Shown here one piece after another: positions 13,727 through 64,000 of a stretch of DNA of 64,000 bases (positions are counted from its first letter, which is position 1; each line of letters starts with the position of its first letter). The notes below the pieces were generated by a model that was not told the origin of the DNA, ran no database searches, and saw only the letters and a list, made by a program, of their open reading frames with translations. The DNA lies in the NCBI RefSeq assembly GCF_004336745.1, contig NZ_SJXD01000011.1, forward strand, positions 1-64,000, in the 5' to 3' direction. The translations under genes and the position numbers were made by a program. Source of the DNA: Roseococcus sp. SYP-B2431 (lineage in GTDB: Bacteria > Pseudomonadota > Alphaproteobacteria > Acetobacterales > Acetobacteraceae).

Positions 13727-14157
13727 CGCGCGACGCGGCCTATCGGCGAACCCTCTACCGGAGCGGCGGGGTCGTGGTGCGCGTGGGCTGGCGCAGCGCG
13801 AGCGCCGAGGCCTGGATGGCCCGGCACGGCGCGCACGAGGCCTGGTTCCTGGGGGCGTGGAACCCGTTCAGCCGGAGGATGCCGCCGCGCTGGAACGAGG
13901 CCGCGCATCGGCGGCTGCGGCGGGACGTCGCTTCGCTTCCTGCGTCCGAGGCCGAAGGCAGCCTGGGCCGATGGTCGGAGGATATGCTGCTCCTCGCGGC
14001 CAGGACCGCGACGATCCGCAGGCTGATGCGCCGATACCGGCAGGCTGCCGTGGTCCACGTTCCGAGACAGCGACGCGCCCGTCTGCTGTGGCAGGCGCGC
14101 CCCATGCGGTCGTGGGCGTCGAAGACTTTCCAACGCATGGGAATCACCGCAGGGTGA
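13723..14157 (+). CDS. DUF3293 domain protein
   Basis: A 144-residue basic protein. The conserved core has FLGAWNPFSRRMPPRWNEAAHRRL followed by a segment ending DMLLLAARTATIRRLMRRYRQAAVVHV and RRARLLW, the pattern of DUF3293. Members are single-domain proteins of unknown function, usually near nucleic-acid enzymes. The ATG overlaps the stop of the RlmI-like gene, so translation is likely coupled. No signal peptide or membrane segment is visible. Confidence 0.78.
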   Translation: MTRDAAYRRTLYRSGGVVVRVGWRSASAEAWMARHGAHEAWFLGAWNPFSRRMPPRWNEAAHRRLRRDVASLPASEAEGSLGRWSEDMLLLAARTATIRRLMRRYRQAAVVHVPRQRRARLLWQARPMRSWASKTFQRMGITAG

Positions 14158-14209
14158 CGGCGGGAGAGGCGGGCGCAGTGTCGCGCTGGCCGCCGCCGGA
14201 GATGCCAGG

Positions 14210-14812
14210 ATGCGCTACGTCGCCGAGATGCAGGTGGCCCAGAACGATTTCGAGCTCGGCTTTCCGAGCATCAACTGCTGCAACGCCGTCATCTATGCGA
14301 CCAACCGCGGCCTCTTCGGCTTCCACAGCTACGGCGGCGACACGAAGGCCAAGTGGGACGAGCGCGCGGCTCTCTTCGCGCAGTTCGTCCTTGCCGCCGC
14401 CGCCGGCCCGGTGACGGGAAGCCGCCTCTACAGCGTGACCTTCGTCGGGCGGCGAGGCTACTCCTCGCCGGATGAATGGCGGGAGGAGCTGGTGGCCTAT
14501 GCCGATGCGTTGCATTTCGGCGGCAAGCTCCGGGGCGTCGATCTGTCGCAGATCCTTCTCGGCAACGGAGACTCCGCCTATGTCCGGGCGCGGCGGGCCG
14601 GCGACAAGTGCGAGATCTGCTGCAAGCCCTGGAGCGATGCCGATCGGCTGACCTTCGGCGTCCCCAATCCCGCTCTGCACCAGGAGATGTTCACCCAACG
14701 CGTCGCGGGCCACAATCAGATCACGCTCCGGAACATCCCGGGCCAGATCCTGACGCACATGAACCAGGCGGGGGCCAATCGCGCCCATTCCAGGCGGCTT
14801 CGGGGTCTCTGA
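14210..14812 (+). CDS. unknown protein, possible CheD/CNF-like deamidase fold
   Basis: I do not recognise this 200-residue protein with certainty. Residues 18-45 read FPSINCCNAVIYATNRGLFGFHSYGG: a Cys at the end of one strand, a short hairpin, and a His after the next strand. This recalls the Cys-His arrangement of CheD, YfiH and CNF1-type glutaminyl deamidases. A central segment contains TFVGRRGYSSPDEW and a Cys pair (CEICCKPW). The C-terminus is Arg-rich and could be disordered. A GGAGATGCCAGG stretch precedes the ATG. It lies 52 bases after the DUF3293 gene and is convergent with the patatin gene. The deamidase idea rests on local motif shape only. Confidence 0.6.
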   Translation: MRYVAEMQVAQNDFELGFPSINCCNAVIYATNRGLFGFHSYGGDTKAKWDERAALFAQFVLAAAAGPVTGSRLYSVTFVGRRGYSSPDEWREELVAYADALHFGGKLRGVDLSQILLGNGDSAYVRARRAGDKCEICCKPWSDADRLTFGVPNPALHQEMFTQRVAGHNQITLRNIPGQILTHMNQAGANRAHSRRLRGL

Positions 14813-14855
14813 CCGCCCATGCTTCCTGTCACGACGGTCGCCTCCGCGCCGCCGG

Positions 14856-15920
14856 CTACAGATACCGCTCGATATCCAGCGTGCTCTCGCGTCCCACCTT
14901 GTCGAAGCTCTCGCGGAGGAAACGGTCTGCCGCCTCCCGCCCGTAGTCGCGCAGCGTGGTCAGGAAATCCCACTCTCCGTTGAACTTGGTGCTGAGCTTG
15001 AAGGCCCGCATCCGCTCCTCGTCCTCGATCGAGTGGAGGAAGATGCGGCGGTAGCGCGGCTGTTCCAGCCGGCCCGCGTCCAGCATGCGCTGGACGAAGT
15101 CGATCGCGCGCATCTCGCTCATCAGCGAGGCGTTGAAGCTGATCTCGTTCAGCCGGTTCATGATGTCGCTGGTGGAGGTCGGCAGCTCGGGGCGCAGCAG
15201 CGGGTTCAGCTGCACCAGCACGATGTCGGCGGCCATGCGCTCGTGATAGAGCGGCCAGAGCGCCGGATTGCCGAGATAGCCGCCGTCCCAATAGGCCTCG
15301 CCGTCGATCTCCACGGCCTTGAACACATTGGGCAGGCAGGCCGAGGCGAGCAGCGCATCCACCGTGATCTCCTCGCGCCGGAAGATCTTGGGCTTGCCGG
15401 TGCGGACGTTGGTGGCCGAGATGAACATCCGCACCGCGCTCTTGTCCTCCCGCAGCCGCGCGAGGTCGAGGCTTTCGTCCAGCGCCTTGCGGAGCGGGTT
15501 GAACTCCATCGAGAAGGGGTTGAGCTGATAGGGGCTGAGCACACGCGTCATCGTGTCGAAGGCATTGTAGGCGAGGCTGTAGGTCATGTCCCAGCCCCAG
15601 AGCGCCTTCTCCACCGGATGCGCGCGGAGCGGCGAGACGGCGAACTTGGCCCCGAGCGCGCGCCAGAAGCGCTCCAGCGCGGCCTTGGCGCCGGCGCGCC
15701 CGTTCTCCAGCAGCCCCAGCGCCAGGATCGCGCCGTTGATCGCGCCCGCGGAGGTGCCCGAGAGCCCGTCGAACTCGACGCGATCGTCCTCCAGCAGCCG
15801 GTCCAGCGCGCCCCAGGTGAAGGCGCCATGCGTGCCGCCGCCCTGCAGGGCCAGGTTGATGCGCCGCGTGGTCCGCTGGGGCAGCGCGGGAGCCGGGATC
15901 CCGGCGGGGGCAATGTCCAT
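14856..15920 (-). CDS. patatin-like phospholipase / possible intracellular PHB depolymerase
   Basis: A 354-residue serine lipid hydrolase of the patatin family. The oxyanion loop is LALQGGGTHGAFTWG, the nucleophile elbow GLSGTSAGAING (GxSxG), and the second catalytic residue lies in YWDGGYLGN (DGG), forming a Ser-Asp dyad. There is no signal peptide, so it should act in the cytoplasm or on membranes. Its start overlaps the stop of the 3-hydroxybutyrate dehydrogenase gene by one base (TGATG), so the two are cotranslated. Because of that pairing I suspect it acts on PHB or its oligomers rather than phospholipid, but this is inference. Confidence 0.88.
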   Translation of the reverse strand: MDIAPAGIPAPALPQRTTRRINLALQGGGTHGAFTWGALDRLLEDDRVEFDGLSGTSAGAINGAILALGLLENGRAGAKAALERFWRALGAKFAVSPLRAHPVEKALWGWDMTYSLAYNAFDTMTRVLSPYQLNPFSMEFNPLRKALDESLDLARLREDKSAVRMFISATNVRTGKPKIFRREEITVDALLASACLPNVFKAVEIDGEAYWDGGYLGNPALWPLYHERMAADIVLVQLNPLLRPELPTSTSDIMNRLNEISFNASLMSEMRAIDFVQRMLDAGRLEQPRYRRIFLHSIEDEERMRAFKLSTKFNGEWDFLTTLRDYGREAADRFLRESFDKVGRESTLDIERYL

Positions 15921-16726
15921 CAGGCGGCGAGCCAGCCGCCGTCGATGGAGAGCGCCGACCCGTTCACGCCGCCCGAGCCGGGACCGACGAGGTAGAGCGC
16001 CATGCGCGCGACCTCCTCGACCTCGATCCAGCGCTTGGAGGGCTGCTTCTCGAGCAGATGGTCCTTCAGCGCCGCCTCCTCGCTCACGCCGAACTTCTCG
16101 GCGAGCGGCTTCACCTGCGCCTCGGCCAGCGGCGTGCGCACGAAGCCCGGGCAGATGGCGTTGCAGGTGACCGGCGACTGCGCGATCTCCAGCGCGACCG
16201 ACTTGGTCAGCCCGACCACGCCGTGCTTGGCCGCGACATAGGCCGTCTTGTAGGGGCTCGCGACCAGGCCGTGCGCGCTGGCGACGTTCAAGATGCGCCC
16301 GTGCTTCCGCTCCAGCATGCCGGGCAGGGCGGCGGCGATCGCATGGAAGTTGCTGCTGAGGTTGATGGCGATGATCGCGTCCCACTTCGCCGCAGGAAAA
16401 TCCTGCACCGGCGAGACGAACTGGATCCCCGCATTGTTCACCAGGATGTCGAGCTTGCCGAAGGCCTTCTCCGCCTCGGCCACCATGCCGCGCACCTCCT
16501 CGGGCTTCGACATGTCGGTCGCGCTGTAGGGCGCCTCGGCCATGCCCATGAGCGCGCCGATCTCGGCCCGGGCCGCGGCGATCTCCTCCGGCCGGCCGAA
16601 GCCGTTCAGCATGACCCGCGCGCCAGCCTCGGCGTAGATCTTCGCGATGCCAAGGCCGATGCCCGACGTCGAGCCGGTAACCAGGGCTGCCTGCCCGGCG
16701 AGAATCCGCTCCATGCGTTCCATCAT
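15920..16726 (-). CDS. bdhA: D-3-hydroxybutyrate dehydrogenase
   Basis: A 268-residue short-chain dehydrogenase that oxidises D-3-hydroxybutyrate to acetoacetate with NAD. The nucleotide-binding motif is VTGSTSGIGLGIAK, NNAG follows in LVNNAGIQFVSPV, and the catalytic Ser-Tyr-Lys set lies in NVASAHGLVASPYKTAYVAAKHG. The substrate-specific helix region with CNAICPGFVRTPL and EKQPSKRW is characteristic of BdhA. Several starts are possible (16726, 16723, 16711); the first is given. It is the upstream member of a two-gene operon with the patatin-like hydrolase. Confidence 0.93.
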   Translation of the reverse strand: MMERMERILAGQAALVTGSTSGIGLGIAKIYAEAGARVMLNGFGRPEEIAAARAEIGALMGMAEAPYSATDMSKPEEVRGMVAEAEKAFGKLDILVNNAGIQFVSPVQDFPAAKWDAIIAINLSSNFHAIAAALPGMLERKHGRILNVASAHGLVASPYKTAYVAAKHGVVGLTKSVALEIAQSPVTCNAICPGFVRTPLAEAQVKPLAEKFGVSEEAALKDHLLEKQPSKRWIEVEEVARMALYLVGPGSGGVNGSALSIDGGWLAA

Positions 16727-16957
16727 TCCATTTTTGTTGCGCCGCCATAGCGGAGAATGGGCGCTCGCTCAATCAATCCGCGGCGGGCCATTCGGTCGCA
16801 GGCATCTTGCCAGGGAACCCTGCATCATATGCCTGCGCGACAGACGCGACGCAGGCAGGGATCGCCCGACGACATCGGGCCGGCATAAGGCCGGCGCACG
16901 GGGCCGGTCTGCCGGTCCGGTCCACCCCGTCCCATCCCATCCCATCCGGAGATTACC

Positions 16958-17140
16958 ATGCCCCAGCTCCTCCTCGCCGTCATCGCCGCCGTCGTCGTGA
17001 GCACGGGCGCCGATGCCGCCACCATCGGCCATGGCCTGCGCTTCGTGGGCGCCGCTCAGCCTTCCTCGCCGCAGCGTCCGGACCCGGCGTCGGCCACCGG
17101 CCGTCCTGCCACGCAGCTCCAGGCCGAAGCGGCGCGCTGA
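16958..17140 (+). CDS. small secreted or periplasmic protein
   Basis: A 60-residue protein of unknown function. It starts MPQLLLAVIAAVVVSTGADA, a compact signal peptide with probable cleavage after ADA, followed by a short polar Pro/Ser/Gln-rich tail. A GGAG site lies seven bases before the ATG. Three copies of the pentamer cccat lie directly upstream (16931-16945). It is isolated from other plus-strand genes apart from a tiny ORF that follows. Confidence 0.5.
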   Translation: MPQLLLAVIAAVVVSTGADAATIGHGLRFVGAAQPSSPQRPDPASATGRPATQLQAEAAR

Positions 17141-17188
17141 GCCGCAGGCGGCCCTCGGCATGAACTGCCCGAGCCGCCCGAACGGCTG

Positions 17189-17296
17189 GTGACCGAGCTC
17201 CGCGCCATCGGCGAGACGCAGAACCAGGAATGGGCCCGGCGCGCCGGCCCCGAGGGCCAGCAGGCGCTGGAGCGCTACCGCGCCGCGCTCCGCTGA
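17189..17296 (+). CDS. possible 35-residue small ORF
   Basis: GTG-initiated reading frame ending three bases before the stop of the convergent histidine kinase. The product (TELRAIGETQNQEWARRAG then a helix ending RYRAALR) is amphipathic and not visibly an antisense shadow, and it lies in the same frame as the small secreted gene upstream, past that gene's stop. It could be a tiny protein, or the tail of a gene broken at 17138. The ribosome site is poor. Confidence 0.25.
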   Translation: MTELRAIGETQNQEWARRAGPEGQQALERYRAALR

Positions 17297-17299
17297 AGG

Positions 17300-20200
17300 T
17301 CAGGCGGCCGGCGCGGCGCCGCCCAGCGCGGGCCGCGCCACCGCCAGCGTATCGGCCAGCAGCTTGTCCAGCTGCCCCCGCGCCGCCTCCACCCCGATCA
17401 CGTCCTCCGCGCGCGCCGCCTGCTCCATGGCCTGCGCGGCCTCCGCCAGCAACCGCGCGCCCACCATGCGCGACGAGCCCTTCAGCCGGTGCGCCGCCTC
17501 CGCCAGCCGTGCCCCGCTGGCCTCCTTCAGCCGCGCGATGTCGTGCGCCGCCTGCTCGGCGAAGCTCTCCAGGATGCCGAGCAGCCGCTCCCGGTCCTGC
17601 CCGAAGAGCCCGCGCAGCGCGTCGGGATCGAAGAGCGCCCCGCCGGTGGACGCGCCCTCCCGCGTCAGGCTTGGCATGAAGCGCCCGAGCGCGCGGGAGA
17701 GCCCGTCCAGGGTCACGGGCTTGGCCACGAAGCCGTCCATCCCCGCCGCGTAGCAGCGCTCGGCCTCGCCCTTCAGCGCATTGGCCGTGACGGCGATCAG
17801 CGTCGTGCGGGGCAGGCCCTTCGCCTGCTCCTCCTGCCGGATCGCCCGCGCCATCTCGAAGCCGTCCATCACCGGCATGTGGATGTCGAGCAGCACGACC
17901 GAAGGCCGGTGCCACTGCCAGTGCGCCAGGCCCTGCGCGCCGTCGTCCGCGGTGGCCGCGGGGATGCCGAGCAGCTCCAGCTGGCGGGTGATGACCTCGC
18001 GGTTCACCGGATGGTCGTCCACCACCAGCACGCGGCCGAGCGGGGCGGTGCCGACGGGCAGCACGGGCGCGACCGCCGGCGCCGGCACCGTCGGCACCGG
18101 CGCTTCGGCGAAGCCGAGCCGCAGCGTCACCACGAAGCGGCTGCCGCGCCCGGGCGTGCTCTCGGCGCGGACCTCGCCCTCCATGAGCTCGGCGAGGCGG
18201 CGGACGATGGAGAGGCCGAGCCCCGTGCCGCCGAAGCGCCGCGTCGTCGAGCTGTCGGCCTGGGTGAAGGGCTGGAACAGCCGCGCCAGCGTCTCGGCAT
18301 CCATGCCCACGCCGCTGTCCTCGACGATCAGGCGGATCAGCGCCAGGTTGCCCTCCGCCCGCGTCTGCGCGGCCAGGCGGACGAAGCCGCGCTCGGTGAA
18401 CTTCAGCGCGTTGCCGATCAGGTTGAAGAGGATCTGCCGCACGCGGGTGGGGTCGCCCTCCAGCCAGTCGGGGCCGGGGTCGGGCGGGTCGGCGAAGAGG
18501 GTGAGGCCGCGCTGGCGGGCCTGGGGCATCAGGGTCTCGACCGTGCCCTCGATGAGGCCGCGCAGGCTGAAGGGCAGGGTCTCCACCTCCATCCGGCCCG
18601 CCTCGATCTTCGAGAAGTCCAGCACGTCGTCGATGATGCGCAGCAGCGACTGAGCGCTCTCGCGCATCACCGCCACGCTGCGCGCCTGGTCGGTCGCGAG
18701 CTCCGAACGGTCGAGGATCTCCATCATGCCGAGCACGCCGTTCATCGGCGTGCGGATCTCGTGGCTCATGGCCGCGAGGAAGGCGGACTTGGCATGGGCC
18801 GCTGTCTCGGCGGCGTCGCGCGCGGCCTCCGCCTCCGCCTGGGCGGCCAGCGCGGCCTGCTCGCTCGACTTCAGCGCCGTCACGTCGCGCGCGTGGCTGA
18901 TCATCCGGTTGCCGGAGAGCAGGGTGTAGGTGAACTCGACCCAGCGGCCGCCGGGCATCTGCCGCGCGTAGCGCTGGCTTCCATGCGCGCGGATGTGGTC
19001 ATAGACCATGTCCTCCCGCGCCGCGGCCTCGGCCTCGATGTCGTCCACCGGGCCGAAATCGCCCCGCTCCGCGAGCCAGCGGATGCCGTCGCGAAAGGCG
19101 ACGCCCGGCGCGAAGAGCTCCTGCGGCGCATCCAGCAGCTCGCTGTGGCGCTTGTTGGCCAGGATGATCCGCGTGTCCGCGTCGAAGAGCGTGACCAGCG
19201 CGTCGGTGCTGTCCAGCACCTCGCGCAGCAGGGTCCGCTCGGATTCCAGCTCCGCCTCGCGGCTGCGCAGCGCCGAAAGGTCTCGCGCGAAGGAGATGAC
19301 GCGACCGCCCGAGATGAGCTTGAAGTTGAACTCGATCCAGCGGCCGTTGGGCAGCAGCCGCACGTAGCGGTCCAGATCGCCCGAGAAGACGGCGGCGAGG
19401 CGCGCGCCGACCACCGTCTCCTCGTCCTGGTCGAAGCCGAAATCCCCGCGGCGATAGATGAAGCGGATGATCTCCGAGAAGGAGCGGCCGGTCTCGTGCA
19501 TCTCGGCCGGCACGCCGATCAGCTCCTCGAAGCGGCCATTGGCCAGCAGCACGCGCCCCTCGGCGTCGAGCACGATGATGACGGAATCGCTGCTGTCCAG
19601 CACCTCGCGCAGCATCGCGCGCTCGGTGGTCAGCTCCTCCTCGTGTTGCTTGAGCTCGGTGATGTCGCGCCCATGGCCGATGAGGCGGCCGTCCGAAACG
19701 CGCACATAGGTGAATTCCATCCAGCGCCCGTCGGGCATCTGGCGGCTGCTGCCCTGCGTCTCGCCGGCATAGACGCGGCCGATGCGCTCGCGCACGAAGG
19801 CGCCGACCTCCGCTTCGGGCACGGGGCCGAAATCGCCGCGCCGCGTCAGGAAGGCCACGCCGTCCGCGAAAGCGCGGCCGGGCGCGAACAGCTCCTGCGG
19901 GACGCCGATCAGCTCCTCGTGCCGGCTGTTGGCGAGCAGGACACGGCCCGTCTCGTCGAAGACCGTGACGAGGCTGTCGGTGCTGTCCAGCACCTCGCGC
20001 AGCAGGGTGCGCTCCGTCTCCAGCTCCGCCTCGCGCTGCTTCAGCGGGGTGATGTCGCGCGCCTGGGCGATGAGGCGGCCGCGCGAGACCCGACGGTAGC
20101 TGAACTCGATCCACTGGCCCCCGGGCATCCGGCGGTCGAACCGCGCGACCCTGCCCGCGTAGATGTCCTTCACGCGGCCCTGTACCAGGGCCTCGACATC

Positions 20201-57463: not shown

Positions 57464-58435
57464 TCAGTCGGCAAAGGCGCCTGCCGCCTCGATGATCGGC
57501 CGCCAGCGCGCGATCTCCTCGATATGGTAGCGGCGATGAAGGGCGATGCTCGCTCGGTCCGGCGTGGCGGGATCGGTGACGAGGTCGGCGAAGCGCGAAC
57601 GCAGCCGCTCCTCGCGGAGCGCCGCCTGCAACGCGGTGGATATCCGCTCCTGCACCGCCTCCGGGGTGCCCGCCGGTGCATAGAGGCCGTGCCAGGTGGT
57701 CATGACGAAGGCGGGCGCACCGGCCTCGGTCGTGGTGGGTATATCCGGCAGCCCGGGCAGGCGGGCGGAGCTGGTCACGGCAAAGGCGCGGATCCTGCCG
57801 TCGCGGATGAAGGGCGCGGTGTTGGTCGCCTGGTCGCAGAGCAGGTCGAGGCGCCCGGCCATGAGTTCGGTGATGGCCGGAGCGGTGCCGCGAAAGGCGA
57901 CGATGGTTGCCCTGTTGCCCGCGGCACCTTGCAGCAGCAGGCCGCAGAGATTGGCGGCCGAGGCCAGGCCCGCGGTGCCGAGGTTCAGCTCGTTGCCGCG
58001 CCGCCGCAGCTCGCCGAGCAGCCCGGCGAAGTTCTCTGCCGGGAAGCCGGGCCGTGCGATCACCGTCATCGCGGCATCGGACACGAGGCCGAGCGGCGCG
58101 AAGTCCGCGGCGGTGTCATAGGCGAGGCGGCGGAACAGCGTCGCGCCGGCCGCCAGGCCCACATTGCTCATCAGCAGCGTGTAGCCGTCGGGCCGCGCCT
58201 GGGCGACGCGCTGGGCACCGAGATGGGCAGGGGCCGTATTCTCGACCAGGACGGGCTGCGGCATGTGGCGCGTCATGCTTTCCGCCACGATCCGGGTGAC
58301 CACGTCGGTGGGGCCGCCGGCAGCCCCGCCCGCGACGATGATGACGGGCCGGTTGGGATAGTCCTGCGCCCGGGCTGCCGCGCACCCGATGGTCACGGCT
58401 GCGAGGGCCAGCAAGGCTTGGCGGATGGGCGTCAT
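57464..58435 (-). CDS. tripartite tricarboxylate transporter (Bug/TctC) binding protein
   Basis: A 323-residue periplasmic binding protein. The signal peptide (RQALLALAAVTIGCAAARA) is cut near AQDYPNRP, the usual start of mature Bug proteins. The ligand-loop marks are IIVAGGAAGGPTDVVTRIVAE, VENTAPAHLGAQRVAQARPDGYTLLM and FRGTAPAITELMAG, with a GLP.IPTTTEAG motif near the C-terminus. Many Bug proteins serve no adjacent permease, as here, and the cargo cannot be predicted. It lies 117 bases downstream of the ferredoxin reductase gene and is probably the last gene of the oxygenase operon. Confidence 0.88.
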   Translation of the reverse strand: MTPIRQALLALAAVTIGCAAARAQDYPNRPVIIVAGGAAGGPTDVVTRIVAESMTRHMPQPVLVENTAPAHLGAQRVAQARPDGYTLLMSNVGLAAGATLFRRLAYDTAADFAPLGLVSDAAMTVIARPGFPAENFAGLLGELRRRGNELNLGTAGLASAANLCGLLLQGAAGNRATIVAFRGTAPAITELMAGRLDLLCDQATNTAPFIRDGRIRAFAVTSSARLPGLPDIPTTTEAGAPAFVMTTWHGLYAPAGTPEAVQERISTALQAALREERLRSRFADLVTDPATPDRASIALHRRYHIEEIARWRPIIEAAGAFAD

Positions 58436-58552
58436 GCGTCTTCTCCCTCCGCGATCGCAGGGGCACGCCGCGGTTCCCGCATGTTTGGGATCATCCGCGC
58501 GCGCGTGCAAGGCGCCGTCACCCGCCTTGCCTCCGAGGGCGCGAAGACCAGC

Positions 58553-59716
58553 CTAGGCGTCGGCCATCAGGGCTCCCGCGAGGCGCTGGCGCGCCTGACG
58601 CAGCGCGCGAACCGCGTTCCAGCCCAGCGCCCCGACCAGCCGCCCCTCGACCCGGCACAGGGCGACGAAGCGCCCCGGCGCCGCGGCATCGGGCTCTATC
58701 TCGATCTCGCCCCCCGGAGGAAAGAGCCCGTAGCTCTGCAGCTTCACGTCGAACTGATCGGACCAGAGGAAGGGGATCGGCCGAAAGGCCTCCCGCGCGC
58801 CGAGCAGGTTGCGCGCGGCAGCGGCGCCCTGTTCGGAGGCATTCATGCGATGCTCGATGCGAAGCCGCCGCCCATAGCCCTCATGCCACCAGGATGCGAG
58901 GTCGCCCGCCGCGTAGATGCCGGGTGCCGCCTGGCAGAAGGCGTCGCAGACCACGCCATCGGCGAGGTCGAGCCCGCTGCCGGCCAGCCAGCCCGTCGTC
59001 GGCACCGATCCGATGGCGACCAGCACCAGCTCCGCCGGAAGGATCCGGCCGCCGGGGAGGCGCAGGCCGGTCACGTGATCCGCGCCCTCGATTCTGAGGA
59101 CCTGCGTGGACGGCAGTAGGGCCACGCCCGCCTCCCGATGCCGCTGCGCGATCATCTCGCCGATGCGCGCGCCGAACTGCCGGGCCATGGGCAGCGCGGC
59201 CTGGCCCACCAGCGTGACCTCGCAGCCCAGCCCCCGCGCGGTCGCGGCGAACTCCGTCCCCAGCACGCCGGAGCCGATCACGGCGACGCGAGGCTTCGCC
59301 GCAAGCGCGTCACGGATCGCCAGCGCATCGTCGAGGCCGCGCAGCACGTGGACCCCGGCCGGCATGCGCCCCGGCAGCCGGCGCGGACGAACGCCGGTCG
59401 CCAGGATCAGCCCGTCGAAATCGAGGCCGTCGTTATTCTCGAGAGTCACCCGCCGCGCGGCGACATCCAGCGAGACGGCCCGCACACCCAGCCGCCATTC
59501 GGCGCCGAGCGCGTCGAGCGCCGCCTGGTCGCGCAGCGCCAGCCGCCCGGCCTCCCAGGCGCCCGACATGAGCTGCTTGGACAAAGGCGGCCGGTCGTAG
59601 GGCGCGTGCCGCTCCTCGCCCACGAGGGTGATGGTGCCGCCGAAGCCTTCGGCCCGCAGGGTCTCCGCCGCCGCCAGCCCCGCCGCGGAGGCGCCGACGA
59701 TGACGACGCGCCTCAC
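58553..59716 (-). CDS. FAD-dependent ferredoxin reductase of a P450 system
   Basis: A 387-residue NAD(P)H-dependent flavoprotein of the class I P450/dioxygenase reductase type. FAD-binding Rossmann motif VVIVGASAAGLAAAETL, the conserved YDRPPLSKQLMSG segment, an NAD-binding motif VAVIGSGVLGTEFAATARGLG, and the FAD-contact GIYAAGDLASWW are present. The GTG start overlaps the ferredoxin stop (GTGA). It should pass electrons from NAD(P)H to the 3Fe-4S ferredoxin. Length is typical of putidaredoxin-reductase-like enzymes. Confidence 0.91.
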   Translation of the reverse strand: MRRVVIVGASAAGLAAAETLRAEGFGGTITLVGEERHAPYDRPPLSKQLMSGAWEAGRLALRDQAALDALGAEWRLGVRAVSLDVAARRVTLENNDGLDFDGLILATGVRPRRLPGRMPAGVHVLRGLDDALAIRDALAAKPRVAVIGSGVLGTEFAATARGLGCEVTLVGQAALPMARQFGARIGEMIAQRHREAGVALLPSTQVLRIEGADHVTGLRLPGGRILPAELVLVAIGSVPTTGWLAGSGLDLADGVVCDAFCQAAPGIYAAGDLASWWHEGYGRRLRIEHRMNASEQGAAAARNLLGAREAFRPIPFLWSDQFDVKLQSYGLFPPGGEIEIEPDAAAPGRFVALCRVEGRLVGALGWNAVRALRQARQRLAGALMADA

Positions 59717-59907
59717 ACCTCGACCTTGATCGCCAGCGCCGGGCAAAGGCGGATCGCCTGCCGGACCTCGGCCAGCTTGTCGTCCGGCGGCGTCTCGTCC
59801 AGCAGGATGACGATGCCGTCCTCCTCGCGCTGGTCGAAGACGGTCGGGGCCGCCAGCACGCATTGGCCGGCGCCGCAGCACTTGTCTTCTTCGATGGTCA
59901 CTCGCAT
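59713..59907 (-). CDS. 3Fe-4S ferredoxin partnering the P450
   Basis: A 64-residue ferredoxin. Cluster Cys occur at positions 10, 16 and 55 (DKCCGAGQCVLAAP and LCPALAI), a Cx5C...CP arrangement typical of single 3Fe-4S ferredoxins of actinobacterial and proteobacterial P450 systems; Cys11 is an extra residue. It sits between P450 and reductase genes, 13 bases after the P450 stop, with its own stop overlapping the reductase start. It is the electron shuttle of the oxygenase. Confidence 0.92.
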   Translation of the reverse strand: MRVTIEEDKCCGAGQCVLAAPTVFDQREEDGIVILLDETPPDDKLAEVRQAIRLCPALAIKVEV

Positions 59908-59920
59908 CGCTGAATTCCCC

Positions 59921-61165
59921 CTACCAAGCGACCGGCAGATGTTCGATGCCGTAGACGAAGTTGTCTTCCTTGAAGTCCAGCTCGGAGACCGGCACCGCGA
60001 GGCGCATTGTCGGAATCCGCCGCATGAGCGTGCCGATGGCGATCTGCAGCTCCGCGCGCGCCAGCGGCTGGCCGAGGCACTGGTGCACGCCGAAGCCGAA
60101 GGCGACATGGCCCCGCGCGTCGCGGCGGATGTCGAAGCGGTCGGCATCGGGGAAGACCTCCGGGTCGCGGTCGGCGGCCGGGTTGTGGCAGATGATGCCC
60201 TCGCCGGCGCGGATGGTGACGCCGCCGATCTCGATGTCCTCGATCGCCGTGCGGCGGCGTCCTGCATGGGCCGCGTCGACGTAGCGCAGGATCTCCTCGA
60301 TGGCGCCGTTCAGCAGGGAGGGATCCTCGACCAGCGCCTTCTGCTGCTCGGGATGCTCGAGCAGCGCCAGCAGGCCGAGCGACATGGTATTGGCCGAGGT
60401 CTCGTGCCCCGCCACCAGGAGCAGGCGGCCGATGCCGATGAGCTGCTGCTTGGTGATGTGCCCGGGGCGCAGCTGGGTCACGACCAGCCGGCTGAACATG
60501 TCCTCGCCCGGATCGGCGTTCTTGCGGTCGATCAGCGAGCCGATATAGCCGTCGCAGAGCTCCACGATCGCCGCCGAGGCCACGGCCGGCGGCGTCTTGC
60601 CGTTGGCGATGACCATGCCCTTCTCGTGGAAGTAGTGCTGGTCCTCATAGGGCACGCCCAGCAGGTCGCAGATCATGATCATCGGCAGGGCGAGCGTGAG
60701 CTCATGCACGATGTCGGCGGGCGGGCCCTTGGCGAGGATGGCGTCGATCCGCTCGTCCACCAGGGACTGGATGCGCGGCCGCATGGCCTCGATGCGCTTC
60801 ACCGTGAAGTCGGCCGTCAGCATGCGCCGGAAATACGGGTGCTGCGGCGCGTCCATGGTGATGAAGCTCGGATACTTGGCCCGCACCATGGCCATGCCCG
60901 GATTCGCGCCGGGATAGCCGGGCCTGGAATTGTCGGCGCTGACGCGCGGGTCGGCGAGCAGCGCGCGCACATCCTCGTAGCGCGTGACGAGCCAAGCTTC
61001 CTGGCCCGTCCACATCTTCACCCGCGCGATGGGCTGCGTCTTCCGCAGCTCCCGCAGCTCGGGCGGCGGGTCGAGCGGGCAGCCGCTGCGGCGCGTCGGA
61101 TAGTCGGGGACCCGCCCCGCATGGAAAGGGCAGCCCGCGGCAGCGGCGTCGTGCGAGACGGACAT
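59921..61165 (-). CDS. cytochrome P450 monooxygenase
   Basis: A 414-residue soluble bacterial P450. The heme-binding loop is AFGFGVHQCLGQPLARAEL with the thiolate Cys363. The I helix carries VAGHETSAN (AGxxT-like, here with S in place of the usual second T), and the ExxR pair is IEEILRYV. The N-terminal GCPFHAGRVPDYPTRRSGCPLDPPPEL is typical of CYP105/107-like families. It inserts one oxygen atom into an unknown substrate using electrons from the ferredoxin and reductase encoded next. It is 12 bases downstream of the flavin hydroxylase gene. Confidence 0.94.
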   Translation of the reverse strand: MSVSHDAAAAGCPFHAGRVPDYPTRRSGCPLDPPPELRELRKTQPIARVKMWTGQEAWLVTRYEDVRALLADPRVSADNSRPGYPGANPGMAMVRAKYPSFITMDAPQHPYFRRMLTADFTVKRIEAMRPRIQSLVDERIDAILAKGPPADIVHELTLALPMIMICDLLGVPYEDQHYFHEKGMVIANGKTPPAVASAAIVELCDGYIGSLIDRKNADPGEDMFSRLVVTQLRPGHITKQQLIGIGRLLLVAGHETSANTMSLGLLALLEHPEQQKALVEDPSLLNGAIEEILRYVDAAHAGRRRTAIEDIEIGGVTIRAGEGIICHNPAADRDPEVFPDADRFDIRRDARGHVAFGFGVHQCLGQPLARAELQIAIGTLMRRIPTMRLAVPVSELDFKEDNFVYGIEHLPVAW

Positions 61166-61177
61166 GGGATCTCCTTC

Positions 61178-62698
61178 TCAGGCGGCCTGATCGCTCTTCT
61201 TCAGGAAGTCGGCGAGCTGGTAGGATTGGGTGACGTTCCTGGCCATGCCCGTCGCGCGGCCCCAGTCGTAGGTGCGGTAGCTGTGCCCGCGCGTGACGTA
61301 TTGCCCACCCGCGTAGAACATCTCGTATTGCAGGTGGCGCGAGGCGAATTCCGTGCCCACGGCGTCCCAGGTCAGCTTCATCAGCTTCACCCGCTCCTCG
61401 CCCGTCATGGCCGGCGAGATCTGCGTCGCCGCGATGACGCGCGACAGCTCGGGATGCGAGAAATCCTCCACCGACGAAGGCAGCATCAGCAAGGCGCCGC
61501 CGGCCAGCTCGCGGATCACCTGGATCACCTGCGGGTACATCTCCTGCGACTGGACCTGGGCTGCGTAGAGCAGGTGCTTGTTCGGCAGGTAGTATTCGCC
61601 GACCATCTGCCCGCCGGCCTCCATGCCCAGCACCATCCCCTCGATCAGCGCGGCTTGCGAGGCCAGCTTGCCCAGTTGCTCGCGCACGGGCGGCATGTTC
61701 ACGGTGCCGATGGTCTCCGCCACCCCGCGGGCGAGGCCCACCAGGAAGCGCAGCTTCACCGAGAGGCGGATCTGCGCCTGGTAATTCTGGTAGACATGGG
61801 CCCCGGTGTCGTGGAGCTGGGCGCGGCACATGTCGGTGTCGCGATAGACGAAGATGCGCTCCCAGGGAACCTTCACGTCGTCGAAGAAGATGAGGGCGTC
61901 GTTCTCGTCGTAGCGGAAGGAGAGCGGGTGGTCGTATTCGCTGGTCGCCGCCTCCTCGAAGCTGCGGCGGGAGAGCAGCTTCATGCCCTTGGCGTTCATC
62001 GGCAGGGCGCAGGAGAAGGCCATGTCCTCCTCGCCGCGCTTCAGCGGCTGGCCGGAGCCCACGAAGATCTCGTTGGCCATGATGGCCGAGGTCGCGAAGA
62101 GCTTGGCGCCGCGGATGGTGATGCCGGAGCTGTCCTCGTCGACGATTCGCGCGATCATGTCCTCCGCGCCCTCGCCCTGGTCGCCGAAGGCCTTGGAGCG
62201 GTCGCCCTGCACGTTGTTGATGACGTAGGTGAGGAAGAGGTCGTTGGCGCGCGCGTGCTCGTACCAGTCTCGGAAGGCCTTGCCGCGCGCGGGGTCGTGG
62301 CGGTCGAAAACCTCGGCGCCCATGTACTGCGCGGAGACAGAGGAGGCGACGTGGTCGGGCGAGCGGCCGAGGAAGCCGCAGGTGAGCTCGGCCCATTCCA
62401 CCAGCGCCTTGCGGCGCTCCACCATCTCCCCGTAGCTCCTCGGATGCTGCCAGGCGCGGTTGACGCGCCGGCCGCCGCCGAGATCGAAGGTCATGCGCTC
62501 GATATTCTCGGGGCGGGCCTGGTGGTCGTAGAGCATGGCGGCCGAGCCGATGGCGTTCCGGTAGGCCGGGTGGGCGGTGACATCGCCCACGAGCTTGCCG
62601 TTGAGGTAGACGGCACGGCCGTCGCGGACGGCGCTCAGGTGCTGGGCCCCATCCTTGACGATGCAGTCCTGGACGGCCGGCGGGTTCGCGCTGCTCAT
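61178..62698 (-). CDS. 4-hydroxyphenylacetate 3-hydroxylase family (HpaB) flavin monooxygenase
   Basis: A 506-residue FADH2-dependent aromatic hydroxylase. Family marks include GRAVYLNGKLVGDVTAHPAY near the N-terminus, VINNVQGDRSKAF, ITIRGAKLFATSAIMANEIFVG, FFDDVKVPWERIFVYRD and SQEMYPQVIQVIRELAGGALL. Such enzymes need reduced flavin from a small reductase (HpaC), which is not encoded nearby, so the partner is elsewhere or the ferredoxin reductase substitutes. Substrates in the family include phenols, chlorophenols and polyketide-type aromatics. It is the first gene after a promoter-like site and palindrome, and is followed by the P450 gene. Confidence 0.93.
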   Translation of the reverse strand: MSSANPPAVQDCIVKDGAQHLSAVRDGRAVYLNGKLVGDVTAHPAYRNAIGSAAMLYDHQARPENIERMTFDLGGGRRVNRAWQHPRSYGEMVERRKALVEWAELTCGFLGRSPDHVASSVSAQYMGAEVFDRHDPARGKAFRDWYEHARANDLFLTYVINNVQGDRSKAFGDQGEGAEDMIARIVDEDSSGITIRGAKLFATSAIMANEIFVGSGQPLKRGEEDMAFSCALPMNAKGMKLLSRRSFEEAATSEYDHPLSFRYDENDALIFFDDVKVPWERIFVYRDTDMCRAQLHDTGAHVYQNYQAQIRLSVKLRFLVGLARGVAETIGTVNMPPVREQLGKLASQAALIEGMVLGMEAGGQMVGEYYLPNKHLLYAAQVQSQEMYPQVIQVIRELAGGALLMLPSSVEDFSHPELSRVIAATQISPAMTGEERVKLMKLTWDAVGTEFASRHLQYEMFYAGGQYVTRGHSYRTYDWGRATGMARNVTQSYQLADFLKKSDQAA

Positions 62699-62717
62699 GG
62701 AGATGTCCTTCCGAAGG

Positions 62718-62747
62718 GAGATGCGCGCAATCCGCTGCGCGCATCTC
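62718..62747. promoter_or_regulatory. 11-bp palindrome, candidate operator upstream of the oxygenase operon
   Basis: Perfect inverted repeat gagatgcgcgc / gcgcgcatctc with an eight-base loop. It overlaps the last base of the -10 hexamer of the promoter at 62747-62775 and covers the expected transcription start, 20 bases before the hydroxylase ATG. A regulator of the MarR or TetR type is plausible; an mRNA hairpin masking the ribosome site is the other reading. Confidence 0.55.
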
Positions 62748-62775
62748 TAATACCTATCTTAAAAAGCTATTTCAA
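62747..62775 (-). promoter_or_regulatory. sigma70-like promoter of the HpaB-P450 operon
   Basis: On the minus strand, TTGAAA (-35, complement of 62770-62775) and TATTAG (-10, complement of 62747-62752) stand exactly 17 bases apart, a good match to the sigma70 consensus. The spacer is A/T-rich. The -10 overlaps a perfect palindrome. The embedded word ATAGGTATT also occurs at 63823-63831 and 31530-31538. Confidence 0.6.
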
Positions 62776-62782
62776 GACGCAT

Positions 62783-63772
62783 TCAATCGAGTCGGGCATT
62801 GGCGAGCTGCACCATACGGCCCCAGCGCGGACGCTCGTCGGCGATCTTGCGCTTCAGGGCTTCCGGATCGGGAAGCAGCGGATTCGCGCCCGCGGTGCGG
62901 ACACGCTGCTGGAAGTCCGGCTCGGAGAGGATGGCATGCATGGCGCCGGAAAGCTTCGTCACCGCGGCCTGCGGCATGCCGGCCGAGGCGAGCACGCCCG
63001 TCCAGACCGTCGCCTCCAGCTGCGGCATGCCGACCTCGGCCATGGTCGGCACCTCCGGCAGCGTCGGCCAGCGCGTGCCGCCGGTGACGGCCAGCGGCGC
63101 GAAGTCGCCCGAGCGGACATAGGCGCTGAGCGAGGCCACGTCGGTGATGGTGAAGCGCAGGTCGCCGCGCAGCATGGCCTGGGCCGTCTCGGCCGCGCCG
63201 CGGAAGGGCACGTGCAGGCCGTCCAGCCCGTTCTGCTCCATGAAGAGCGCGCCCAGCAGGTGGGGCGAGGTCGCGATGCCGTTGGAGCCATAGGGGATCG
63301 GCTCGCGCTGCGCCTTCGCCCAGGCGATGAACTCCGCCATGTTCCGCGCGGGCACGGCGCGCGAGGGAACGGCGGCGAGGTTGTAATACTCCCAGACCAG
63401 CCCGATCGGCGTGAAGTCGCGATCGAGGTCGTAGGGGATCGAGCGATAGACGAAGGGATTGCAGAGCAGCTGCGAGACCGTCGCCACGATCAGCGAATAG
63501 CCGGCCGGCTGCGATTTCGCCACGTTGTCGAGGCCGATGATGCCGTTGCTGCCCGAGCGATTCTCGACGGTGAAGGGCTGGCCCAGGCGTTCCTGCAGCT
63601 CGCGCGCCAGCAGCCGCGTGAGGATGTCCGAGGCGCCGCCGGGCGGGTTGGGGACCACGAACCGGACCGGGCGGTCAGGATAGTCCTGGGCACGGGCGAC
63701 GCTCAGCACGGCGGGGGCGGCGAGCAGCCCGCCCAGCAGGGCGCGGCGTGGGGCGATCAGGTCATGGGCCAT
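62783..63772 (-). CDS. tripartite tricarboxylate transporter (Bug/TctC) binding protein
   Basis: A 329-residue periplasmic binding protein. The N-terminus has a twin-Arg-like signal (APRRALLGGLLAAPAVLSVARAQ) and the mature start QDYPDRPVRFVVPNPPGGASDILTRLLA. Ligand-contact regions are VENRSGSNGIIGLDNVAKSQPAGYSLIVA and VPFRGAAETAQAMLRGD, with the C-terminal VPTMAEVGMPQLE. No transporter membrane subunits lie alongside. It is upstream of the hydroxylase gene in the same direction and shares an ATAGGTATT motif 51 bases before its start. It may import the substrate of the oxygenases. Confidence 0.9.
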   Translation of the reverse strand: MAHDLIAPRRALLGGLLAAPAVLSVARAQDYPDRPVRFVVPNPPGGASDILTRLLARELQERLGQPFTVENRSGSNGIIGLDNVAKSQPAGYSLIVATVSQLLCNPFVYRSIPYDLDRDFTPIGLVWEYYNLAAVPSRAVPARNMAEFIAWAKAQREPIPYGSNGIATSPHLLGALFMEQNGLDGLHVPFRGAAETAQAMLRGDLRFTITDVASLSAYVRSGDFAPLAVTGGTRWPTLPEVPTMAEVGMPQLEATVWTGVLASAGMPQAAVTKLSGAMHAILSEPDFQQRVRTAGANPLLPDPEALKRKIADERPRWGRMVQLANARLD

Positions 63773-63822
63773 GGAAATCTCCGCTTGGGGATGGGTGCTG
63801 CGCCGGGCGTTCTTCTTGGAAA

Positions 63823-63831
63823 AATACCTAT
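63823..63831 (-). promoter_or_regulatory. ATAGGTATT motif upstream of the second Bug gene
   Basis: The word ATAGGTATT on the minus strand, 51 bases before the start codon, exactly the distance seen between the same word and the hydroxylase start. It may hold the -10 (TATTTT). No -35 match was found at 16-18 bases, so activator-dependent transcription or a shared operator is possible. Confidence 0.35.
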
Positions 63832-63890
63832 GTGACGAAGTGAAGCGGCGCAAGTCGAAATTGCGATACGGTCGTCCCCCCGGTTCCGCC

Positions 63891-64000
63891 TCAGCCGGCC
63901 GCGGCGCGAAGCGAGCGCCATTCGAGCAGGGCCGCCGTGACCGCCTCCGGCTGCTCGAGAGTGGAGAGGTGCCCGCAGACCGGGACGACGACGAGGCGCG
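63891..64000 (-). CDS. alpha/beta hydrolase, 3' end only
   Basis: The last 36 codons of a gene that runs past the window's right edge. The segment VVPVCGHLSTLEQPEAVTAALLEW carries the C-terminal catalytic His of an alpha/beta hydrolase (GH followed by LEQPEAV), typical of the epoxide hydrolase/haloperoxidase/carboxylesterase fold. It lies upstream of the second Bug gene, in the same orientation, with a 119-base gap, and probably belongs to the same catabolic block. Confidence 0.7.
   Translation of the reverse strand, partial: RLVVVPVCGHLSTLEQPEAVTAALLEWRSLRAAAG

Follow-up and report, generated by a model that had tools for sequence, protein, structure and literature searches.

An HpaB-type hydroxylase and cytochrome P450 block in Roseococcus sp. 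SYP-B2431 as a candidate part of a split MarR-controlled regulon

Cytochrome P450 chains and two-component flavin monooxygenases work in one pathway in the degradation of camphor (CAM), where the flavin monooxygenases are luciferase-type enzymes using flavin mononucleotide (FMN) and the ferredoxin, putidaredoxin, carries a 2Fe-2S cluster. Here we examine an oxygenase block of the alphaproteobacterium Roseococcus sp. SYP-B2431 (RefSeq GCF_004336745.1; 4.7 Mb in 31 contigs), located at the end of bases 1-64000 of contig C1 (NZ_SJXD01000011.1), a stretch of 64,000 nucleotides referred to below as the window. Unlike the CAM system, this block pairs a P450 chain with an HpaB-type enzyme, and its ferredoxin has a CxxAxxC...CP pattern that by eye is of 3Fe-4S type, the Pfam names of its matches being those of single-cluster 4Fe-4S-type domains. 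With HpaBC, the 4-hydroxyphenylacetate 3-hydroxylase, the Roseococcus enzyme shares the HpaB_N and HpaB domains, the conserved Thr196 and Tyr461 positions and a separate PF01613 flavin reductase in the proposed regulon; it differs in that the reductase gene is on another contig, in a score below the TIGR02310 cut-off, in an Arg-His-Tyr triad, and in the enamidase homologue that belongs to the proposed regulon.

The nicotinate pathway of Eubacterium barkeri is anaerobic and reductive. The solved enamidase 2vun, which we take to be the enamidase of this fermentation, resembles an amidohydrolase encoded on Roseococcus contig C29 along nearly its whole length (341 bits, residues 2-384 of 398), the difference being that here the homologue accompanies oxygenases. 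An HpaB-family protein and a P450 in one cluster have already been published for Rhodococcus pyridinivorans DMU114, where the pair cxyAB lies close to a P450 in cluster I (PMC12442393); that cluster differs in adjoining catABC and in P450 systems that were inactive on the tested substrate, and the available part of the paper names no enamidase. The fold of DUF1185 (PF06684) is a variant of chorismate mutase, and genes of this family, among them BB2672 and SPO0826, were noted in 2010 near regulators and genes of branched-chain amino-acid transport and metabolism, a role in amino-acid metabolism being proposed (PMC2954203, in the part available). The DUF1185 gene considered here belongs to the same family and has similar neighbours, and it differs in its oxygenase and enamidase setting. 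In the literature covered, that of PubMed Central, no paper was recognised on this regulon or on an Arg-His-Tyr subfamily of HpaB.

We consider it somewhat probable that this block forms the oxygenase operon within a split, MarR-controlled degradation regulon, in which the P450 would feed a core made up of HpaB, the flavin reductase and the enamidase and directed at a nitrogen heterocycle. This reading draws on the anatomy of the block, on a flavin reductase and an enamidase homologue encoded in trans, on their synteny with hpaB in relatives, on an operator-like site and on the altered active-site triad. The features of the block are as follows.

63891..64000, minus strand: 3' end of an alpha/beta hydrolase (ABH) gene (open reading frame, ORF; Pfam Abhydrolase_6/1)
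62783..63772, minus strand: Bug1, a tripartite tricarboxylate-type (TctC) solute-binding protein (PF03401, 194 bits)
62749..62771, no strand assigned: candidate MarR-type operator AATAGCT-N9-AGCTATT with 1 mismatch, 50 bp upstream of hpaB
61178..62698, minus strand: hpaB, oxygenase component of an HpaB-family two-component flavin monooxygenase, Arg-His-Tyr active-site variant (PF11794, PF03241)
59921..61165, minus strand: cytochrome P450 (PF00067)
59713..59907, minus strand: single-cluster ferredoxin (Fd) of 64 aa (Pfam Fer4_15/Fer4_13)
58553..59716, minus strand: ferredoxin reductase (FdR; PF07992 and PF14759, Reductase_C)
57464..58435, minus strand: Bug2 solute-binding protein (PF03401, 162.9 bits)

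In the direction of transcription the order is ABH end, Bug1, HpaB, P450, ferredoxin, FdR and Bug2. The hpaB, P450 and ferredoxin genes are separated by 12 and then 13 bases, and FdR begins with a GTG at 59716 whose start overlaps the ferredoxin stop in a shared GTGA of 4 bases; on either side the gaps are 84 bases (Bug1 to hpaB) and 117 bases (FdR to Bug2). A preliminary description of the block, made from its letters, had given this gene order and strand, with gaps of 13 bases or less and a GTGA overlap from the hydroxylase through the reductase, and ORFs and Pfam agree with it throughout. The hpaB product has 506 aa with both HpaB_N and HpaB, in keeping with the about 500 aa of the family, and the P450 (best solved matches 5y1i and CYP105Q4), ferredoxin and FdR genes are consecutive, as in a class I P450 chain.

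Flavin reductase, enamidase homologue and active site of HpaB

The preliminary description had found no HpaC-type gene nearby, had suggested that FdR might serve both oxygenases, and had held that an hpaC just outside the window would weaken the idea of a shared pathway. Indeed no PF01613 gene stands next to hpaB, and none was matched between the contig start and C1:683994. A profile search of the genome gave five PF01613 matches, one of them on C29, where a row of DUF1185, enamidase, PF01613 flavin reductase, Bug and HpcH/HpaI lyase genes is followed by a convergent MarR gene. In a Rubritepida metagenome-assembled genome (MAG; L008/L171) the counterparts of DUF1185 (87% identical), enamidase (95%) and flavin reductase (84%, reaching the contig end) adjoin an hpaB 93% identical to that of Roseococcus, so that genes found together in the MAG are apart in our genome. 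A 34-kb contig of Paracraurococcus likewise holds DUF1185, enamidase, lyase, Bug, LIV transporter, flavin reductase and MarR genes together with those for ferredoxin, P450, HpaB, Bug, ABH, a short-chain dehydrogenase/reductase (SDR) and a luciferase-type monooxygenase (LLM). An enamidase homologue was present in all five relatives' genomes searched (79-95%), and since Rhodovarius crocodyli carries enamidase and hpaB on separate contigs and R. harenae about 26 kb apart, the splitting is not unique to Roseococcus.

Relatives of HpaB were collected with patterns from the protein itself, the best 80 of 265 being kept, a choice that favours close relatives, and flanks of up to 10 kb were fetched (10 kb available both upstream and downstream in 45/80 loci). 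In the flanks of 43 of these loci a flavin reductase gene was found, no farther than 5 kb away in 42; amidohydrolases resembling enamidase occur in 39 loci and DUF1185 genes in 35, and 67 loci have one or more of these three genes; some loci also carry amidase, molybdenum hydroxylase subunits or UbiD. Single representatives were confirmed by Pfam/NCBIfam as Amidohydro_1, PF06684, PF01613, MarR, DUF2848, cupin, NtaA/DmoA-type luciferase monooxygenase and LLM, and the L008 amidohydrolase scored 349 bits with 2vun, the next solved relative reaching 37 bits. LLM genes are found in 5/80 loci, lying near hpaB in L010, L012 and L019, and the Roseococcus LLM is the best of 12 matches in its genome to that LLM (76%, the next 51%).

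The C29 flavin reductase lies on another contig, and we regard it as the likely partner of HpaB. With it found, a shared FdR was set aside as the sole flavin source, being unnecessary, and it appears improbable that the FdR of the P450 chain also supplies reduced flavin to HpaB. The adjacency of the genes, with short gaps and an overlap, would fit such a supply, and there is a precedent in the CAM plasmid, where reduced flavin comes from chromosomal reductases or from the reductase of the P450, putidaredoxin reductase giving reduced FMN to the diketocamphane monooxygenases (PMC6843404, in the part available). Against it stand the C29 flavin reductase, whose Rubritepida MAG counterpart is in the hpaB cluster; Paracraurococcus, which has a flavin reductase and a P450 and in whose P450/hpaB locus no FdR was found; and the failure to detect a P450 within 3 kb of hpaB in 78 of 80 relatives.

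The HpaB protein scores 289 bits with TIGR02310, the equivalog model of the 4-hydroxyphenylacetate enzyme (cut-off 885), and 265 with TIGR02309 (cut-off 480), and is 34% identical to EcHpaB across the aligned part. For EcHpaB, Arg113, Tyr117 and His155 are named as vital for substrate binding and the contacts with flavin adenine dinucleotide (FAD) are listed (PMC10816480, in the part available). In 81 HpaBs, namely our protein and the best match from each of the 80 loci, these triad positions read Arg-His-Tyr without exception, the Arg being kept, Tyr replaced by His and His by Tyr. Among the FAD contacts, Thr196 and Tyr461 are conserved in 81/81, Ile157 in 80/81 and Arg164 in 62/81, ours included. 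AphA, an alkylphenol hydroxylase, retains Arg-Tyr-His (PMC6710988, in the part available). Because of the scores below cut-off and the two triad residues swapped in every protein compared, this HpaB seems to represent a separate subfamily of flavin monooxygenases, for which the label 4-hydroxyphenylacetate hydroxylase is not justified. Plasmid searches gave only relatives of less than 60% identity, bearing names such as '4-hydroxyphenylacetate 3-monooxygenase'. The genome has a second HpaB_N gene at C1:1116633 (L126:10552-12084), 28% identical to its best match in the present group, with PF01613 genes elsewhere.

The same scores and residues led us to reject the protein as a relative of 4-hydroxybutyryl-CoA dehydratase or vinylacetyl-CoA isomerase that is not an oxygenase. 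The common family, with 1u8v and 6vjr among the HpaB matches, would allow for it, and it is nevertheless extremely improbable given 75 and 105 bits to those enzymes against 261 to EcHpaB, the conservation of Thr196 and Tyr461, and the flavin reductases in the flanks.

The preliminary description had suggested sequential hydroxylation of one aromatic substrate and growth tests on phenolic and polycyclic compounds; a hydroxylation cascade on a phenolic or polycyclic aromatic is in our view doubtful. The best solved relatives of HpaB are 4-hydroxyphenylacetate and chlorophenol monooxygenases, the DMU114 cluster (PMC12442393, in the part available) has HpaB-like cxyAB and a P450 close to catABC, and four Bradyrhizobium loci contain a UbiD-cluster gene preceded by an operator site, all of which would suit an aromatic substrate; against this, the relatives' neighbours include an enamidase homologue in 39/80 loci as well as amidase and molybdenum hydroxylase subunits, and the positions of Tyr117 and His155 are swapped in 81/81. 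In those four loci (L018, L020, L021 and L029, about 14000-19500) the UbiD-cluster gene, with the site upstream and Pfam UbiD checked on L029, is accompanied by a second HpaB (51-52%) and a cupin-cluster gene.

A candidate MarR operator

The word ATAGCTT was seen by eye to be common to several Roseococcus promoters, and in relatives it forms half of AATAGCT-N9-AGCTATT; a 16-mer comparison of the promoter regions gave no word common to the own promoters. The inverted repeat, first spotted by eye, was then counted against a reversed-pattern control, with a consensus equal to sites seen in Bradyrhizobium and Tardiphaga. Over the 80 loci (1.49 Mb), 58 sites with up to 2 mismatches were found in 29 loci against 2 for the reversed pattern, the counts being inflated by closely related strains; 15 loci have a site assigned upstream of hpaB, and most of the remaining sites precede flavin reductase, MarR, LIV, DUF1185 or LLM genes. 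The Roseococcus genome contains 19 distinct sites with up to 3 mismatches (reversed control 11), the site before hpaB being the best match together with C23:388865, and the window alone holds 1 site where 0.02 are expected, 2 of 100 shuffles containing one. The site at C23:388865 (L156:8865; also 1 mismatch) was rejected as a regulon member; it falls inside a Cas3-like gene, at its 3' end, and is probably a chance match.

A 2-mismatch site (C29:215369-215391) precedes by 110 bp the C29 MarR gene (L125:14636-15259; MarR_2, 44 bits), which falls within the proposed regulon. Sites with 3 mismatches stand about 40 bp upstream of the Roseococcus LLM gene (C1:1146888-1146910) and between the SDR gene and a divergent gene for a thiamine diphosphate (ThDP) enzyme (C1:65522-65544), the latter touching the predicted ThDP start. 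The repeat precedes genes in several species and is absent at some enamidase stretches; AATAGCT-N9-AGCTATT is a putative MarR operator that would co-regulate hpaB and the C29 genes.

Four of the 19 sites are used in this argument, and four of the other 14 were inspected. A 2-mismatch site at C1:1009475 (L157:9475-9497) lies between divergent genes of the serine hydroxymethyltransferase (SHMT) family and hydantoinase/oxoprolinase A. The hydantoinase/oxoprolinase family opens lactams, and the site might mark a further regulon member, or chance. Another at C12:346750 is 178 bp before a Bug gene; for neither of the two was a synteny tie to the pathway found here, and the sites at C1:1008161 and C1:1004221 showed no link to it.

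Beyond the window the same strand continues with the remainder of ABH (full gene 63891-64607) and the SDR gene (64628-65392), from which the ThDP gene diverges, starting at 65544 (PRK08327 model, 671.5 bits, cut-off 456) and accompanied by two further Bug genes (C1 65544-69390; L006:15544-19390). A scan for strict sigma-70 promoters and terminators found none. On the plus strand an open frame of 1565 aa (59138-63835) is antisense to all genes from Bug1 through ferredoxin and to part of FdR, and is most likely a codon-bias artefact of DNA with 70% GC content.

Distribution of the P450 link

The pairing of HpaB with a P450 had been called unusual, and so it proves: the 3 kb around hpaB include a P450 in 2 of the 80 relatives, Paracraurococcus LOR1-02 (L010) and Bradyrhizobium dw_78 (L019), the P450s of the two loci being 70% and 65% identical to ours. 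At least 3 kb is covered on both sides in 66/80 loci and downstream of hpaB in 72/80, and the P450 and ABH of L010, missed by automatic gene clustering, were recovered by tblastn and phmmer. Among five genomes with close HpaBs, 2 carry the P450 (65-70%). In the order, an HpaB relative at E<=1e-100 is present in 33/395 genomes, our own included, and a P450 match at E<=1e-110 in 3/395, our own and two at 50-51% (E 1e-124 to 1e-125); in the class, a P450 match at E<=1e-130 occurs in 1/385 genomes, our own. Up to four candidates were scored per genome in these searches, and the two samples partly overlap.

Further members of the block recur beside hpaB, with ABH relatives of 83%, 78% and 63% in three loci (L010, L019 and L051), a Bug1 relative of 69% between ABH and HpaB in L010, and an FdR relative of 58% in L019. 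The order SDR-ABH-Bug-hpaB-P450-Fd is identical in Roseococcus and Paracraurococcus with proteins only 63-83% alike, and Bradyrhizobium retains hpaB-P450-Fd-FdR, its ABH being divergent and on the other side of hpaB. Bradyrhizobium sp. dw_78 has a second P450-ferredoxin pair (L167:4436-5864), 64 and 63% identical to our proteins, in a stretch without hpaB. In the same genome both the hpaB-P450 genes and the enamidase gene are located close to contig ends.

That the hydroxylase and the P450 serve one pathway is favoured by their tight spacing, by their adjacency in two other genera and by the operator before hpaB. The preliminary description had foreseen that the idea would weaken if related genomes rarely kept the two genes together, and with 2/80 and no clade it does; it is partly restored by the shared operator and the shared SDR and ABH neighbours. 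We find it unlikely that P450 and HpaB act on different substrates, the P450 module having been inserted behind hpaB and using its promoter. Such an insertion would be consistent with the rarity of the P450 near hpaB, with P450-linked HpaBs in three places of the tree and with the second dw_78 P450-Fd copy, which has neither hpaB nor operator in its stretch; the gene order kept between Roseococcus and Paracraurococcus despite 63-83% identity, and the hpaB-P450-Fd-FdR row preserved in Bradyrhizobium with a divergent ABH, argue against it. On a tree of 82 rows the P450 link takes three changes, one change being found in 0% of 200 bootstrap trees, and the three changes may equal one gain and two losses.

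Several observations count against the regulon as we propose it. The three HpaBs with a P450 link do not form a clade, each grouping with P450-less relatives of its own family, and given this the P450 link could be opportunistic. The operator consensus was fixed only after the Roseococcus sites were known; the C29 site also lies directly before a divergent sensor-kinase gene; the SDR/ThDP and LLM sites have 3 mismatches, a level at which chance sites are common (11 in the control). At up to 3 mismatches, the sequence fetched around the enamidase genes of R. harenae and Rhodovarius gave no site, nor did the second-P450 stretch of Bradyrhizobium dw_78, and none lies directly upstream of the Roseococcus DUF1185-enamidase operon, where a degenerate one can be seen by eye. 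Of the six EcHpaB FAD contacts, His155 is Tyr in 81/81 and Val158 varies (Asn in ours). In 37/80 loci the flanks yielded no flavin reductase, 35 loci lacking the full 10 kb on one or both sides. The flavin reductase of Paracraurococcus belongs to a different branch of PF01613 and shares only 35% identity with that of C29, a distance that tempers the partnership we suggest. Lastly, assignment as an enamidase homologue would give a reaction type at best and no substrate.

A possible route and its meaning

In the regulon we propose, a MarR repressor would control genes split across the genome. The P450, with its own ferredoxin and reductase, would be an add-on that oxidises a substituted precursor to the HpaB substrate. 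Reduced flavin for HpaB would be made by the C29 PF01613 flavin reductase, and HpaB would hydroxylate a small ring, probably a nitrogen heterocycle, allowing a lactam or cyclic enamide to arise. The C29 enamidase homologue could hydrolyse this compound, and DUF1185, which presumably resembles RidA, may aid enamine or imine hydrolysis, as its chorismate-mutase-like fold suggests. The C29 HpcH/HpaI lyase would then split the resulting acid. Both the order of these reactions and the substrate class are predictions from sequence.

More tentatively, we put forward a so far undescribed route by which nitrogen heterocycles would be degraded aerobically: the HpaB subfamily with inverted Tyr/His would act with the enamidase and DUF1185 under a MarR regulon in Alphaproteobacteria and Burkholderiaceae, P450 modules having possibly joined it in three lineages and widened the range of starting compounds. 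The HpaB subfamily lacks the substrate triad of the enzyme that lends such proteins their annotation, and an odd operon can be recast as a testable regulon with a likely flavin donor for HpaB and a predicted operator and regulator. The DUF1185 family would gain a chemical setting, and if the proposal is true, it would represent a new aerobic way of opening nitrogen rings.

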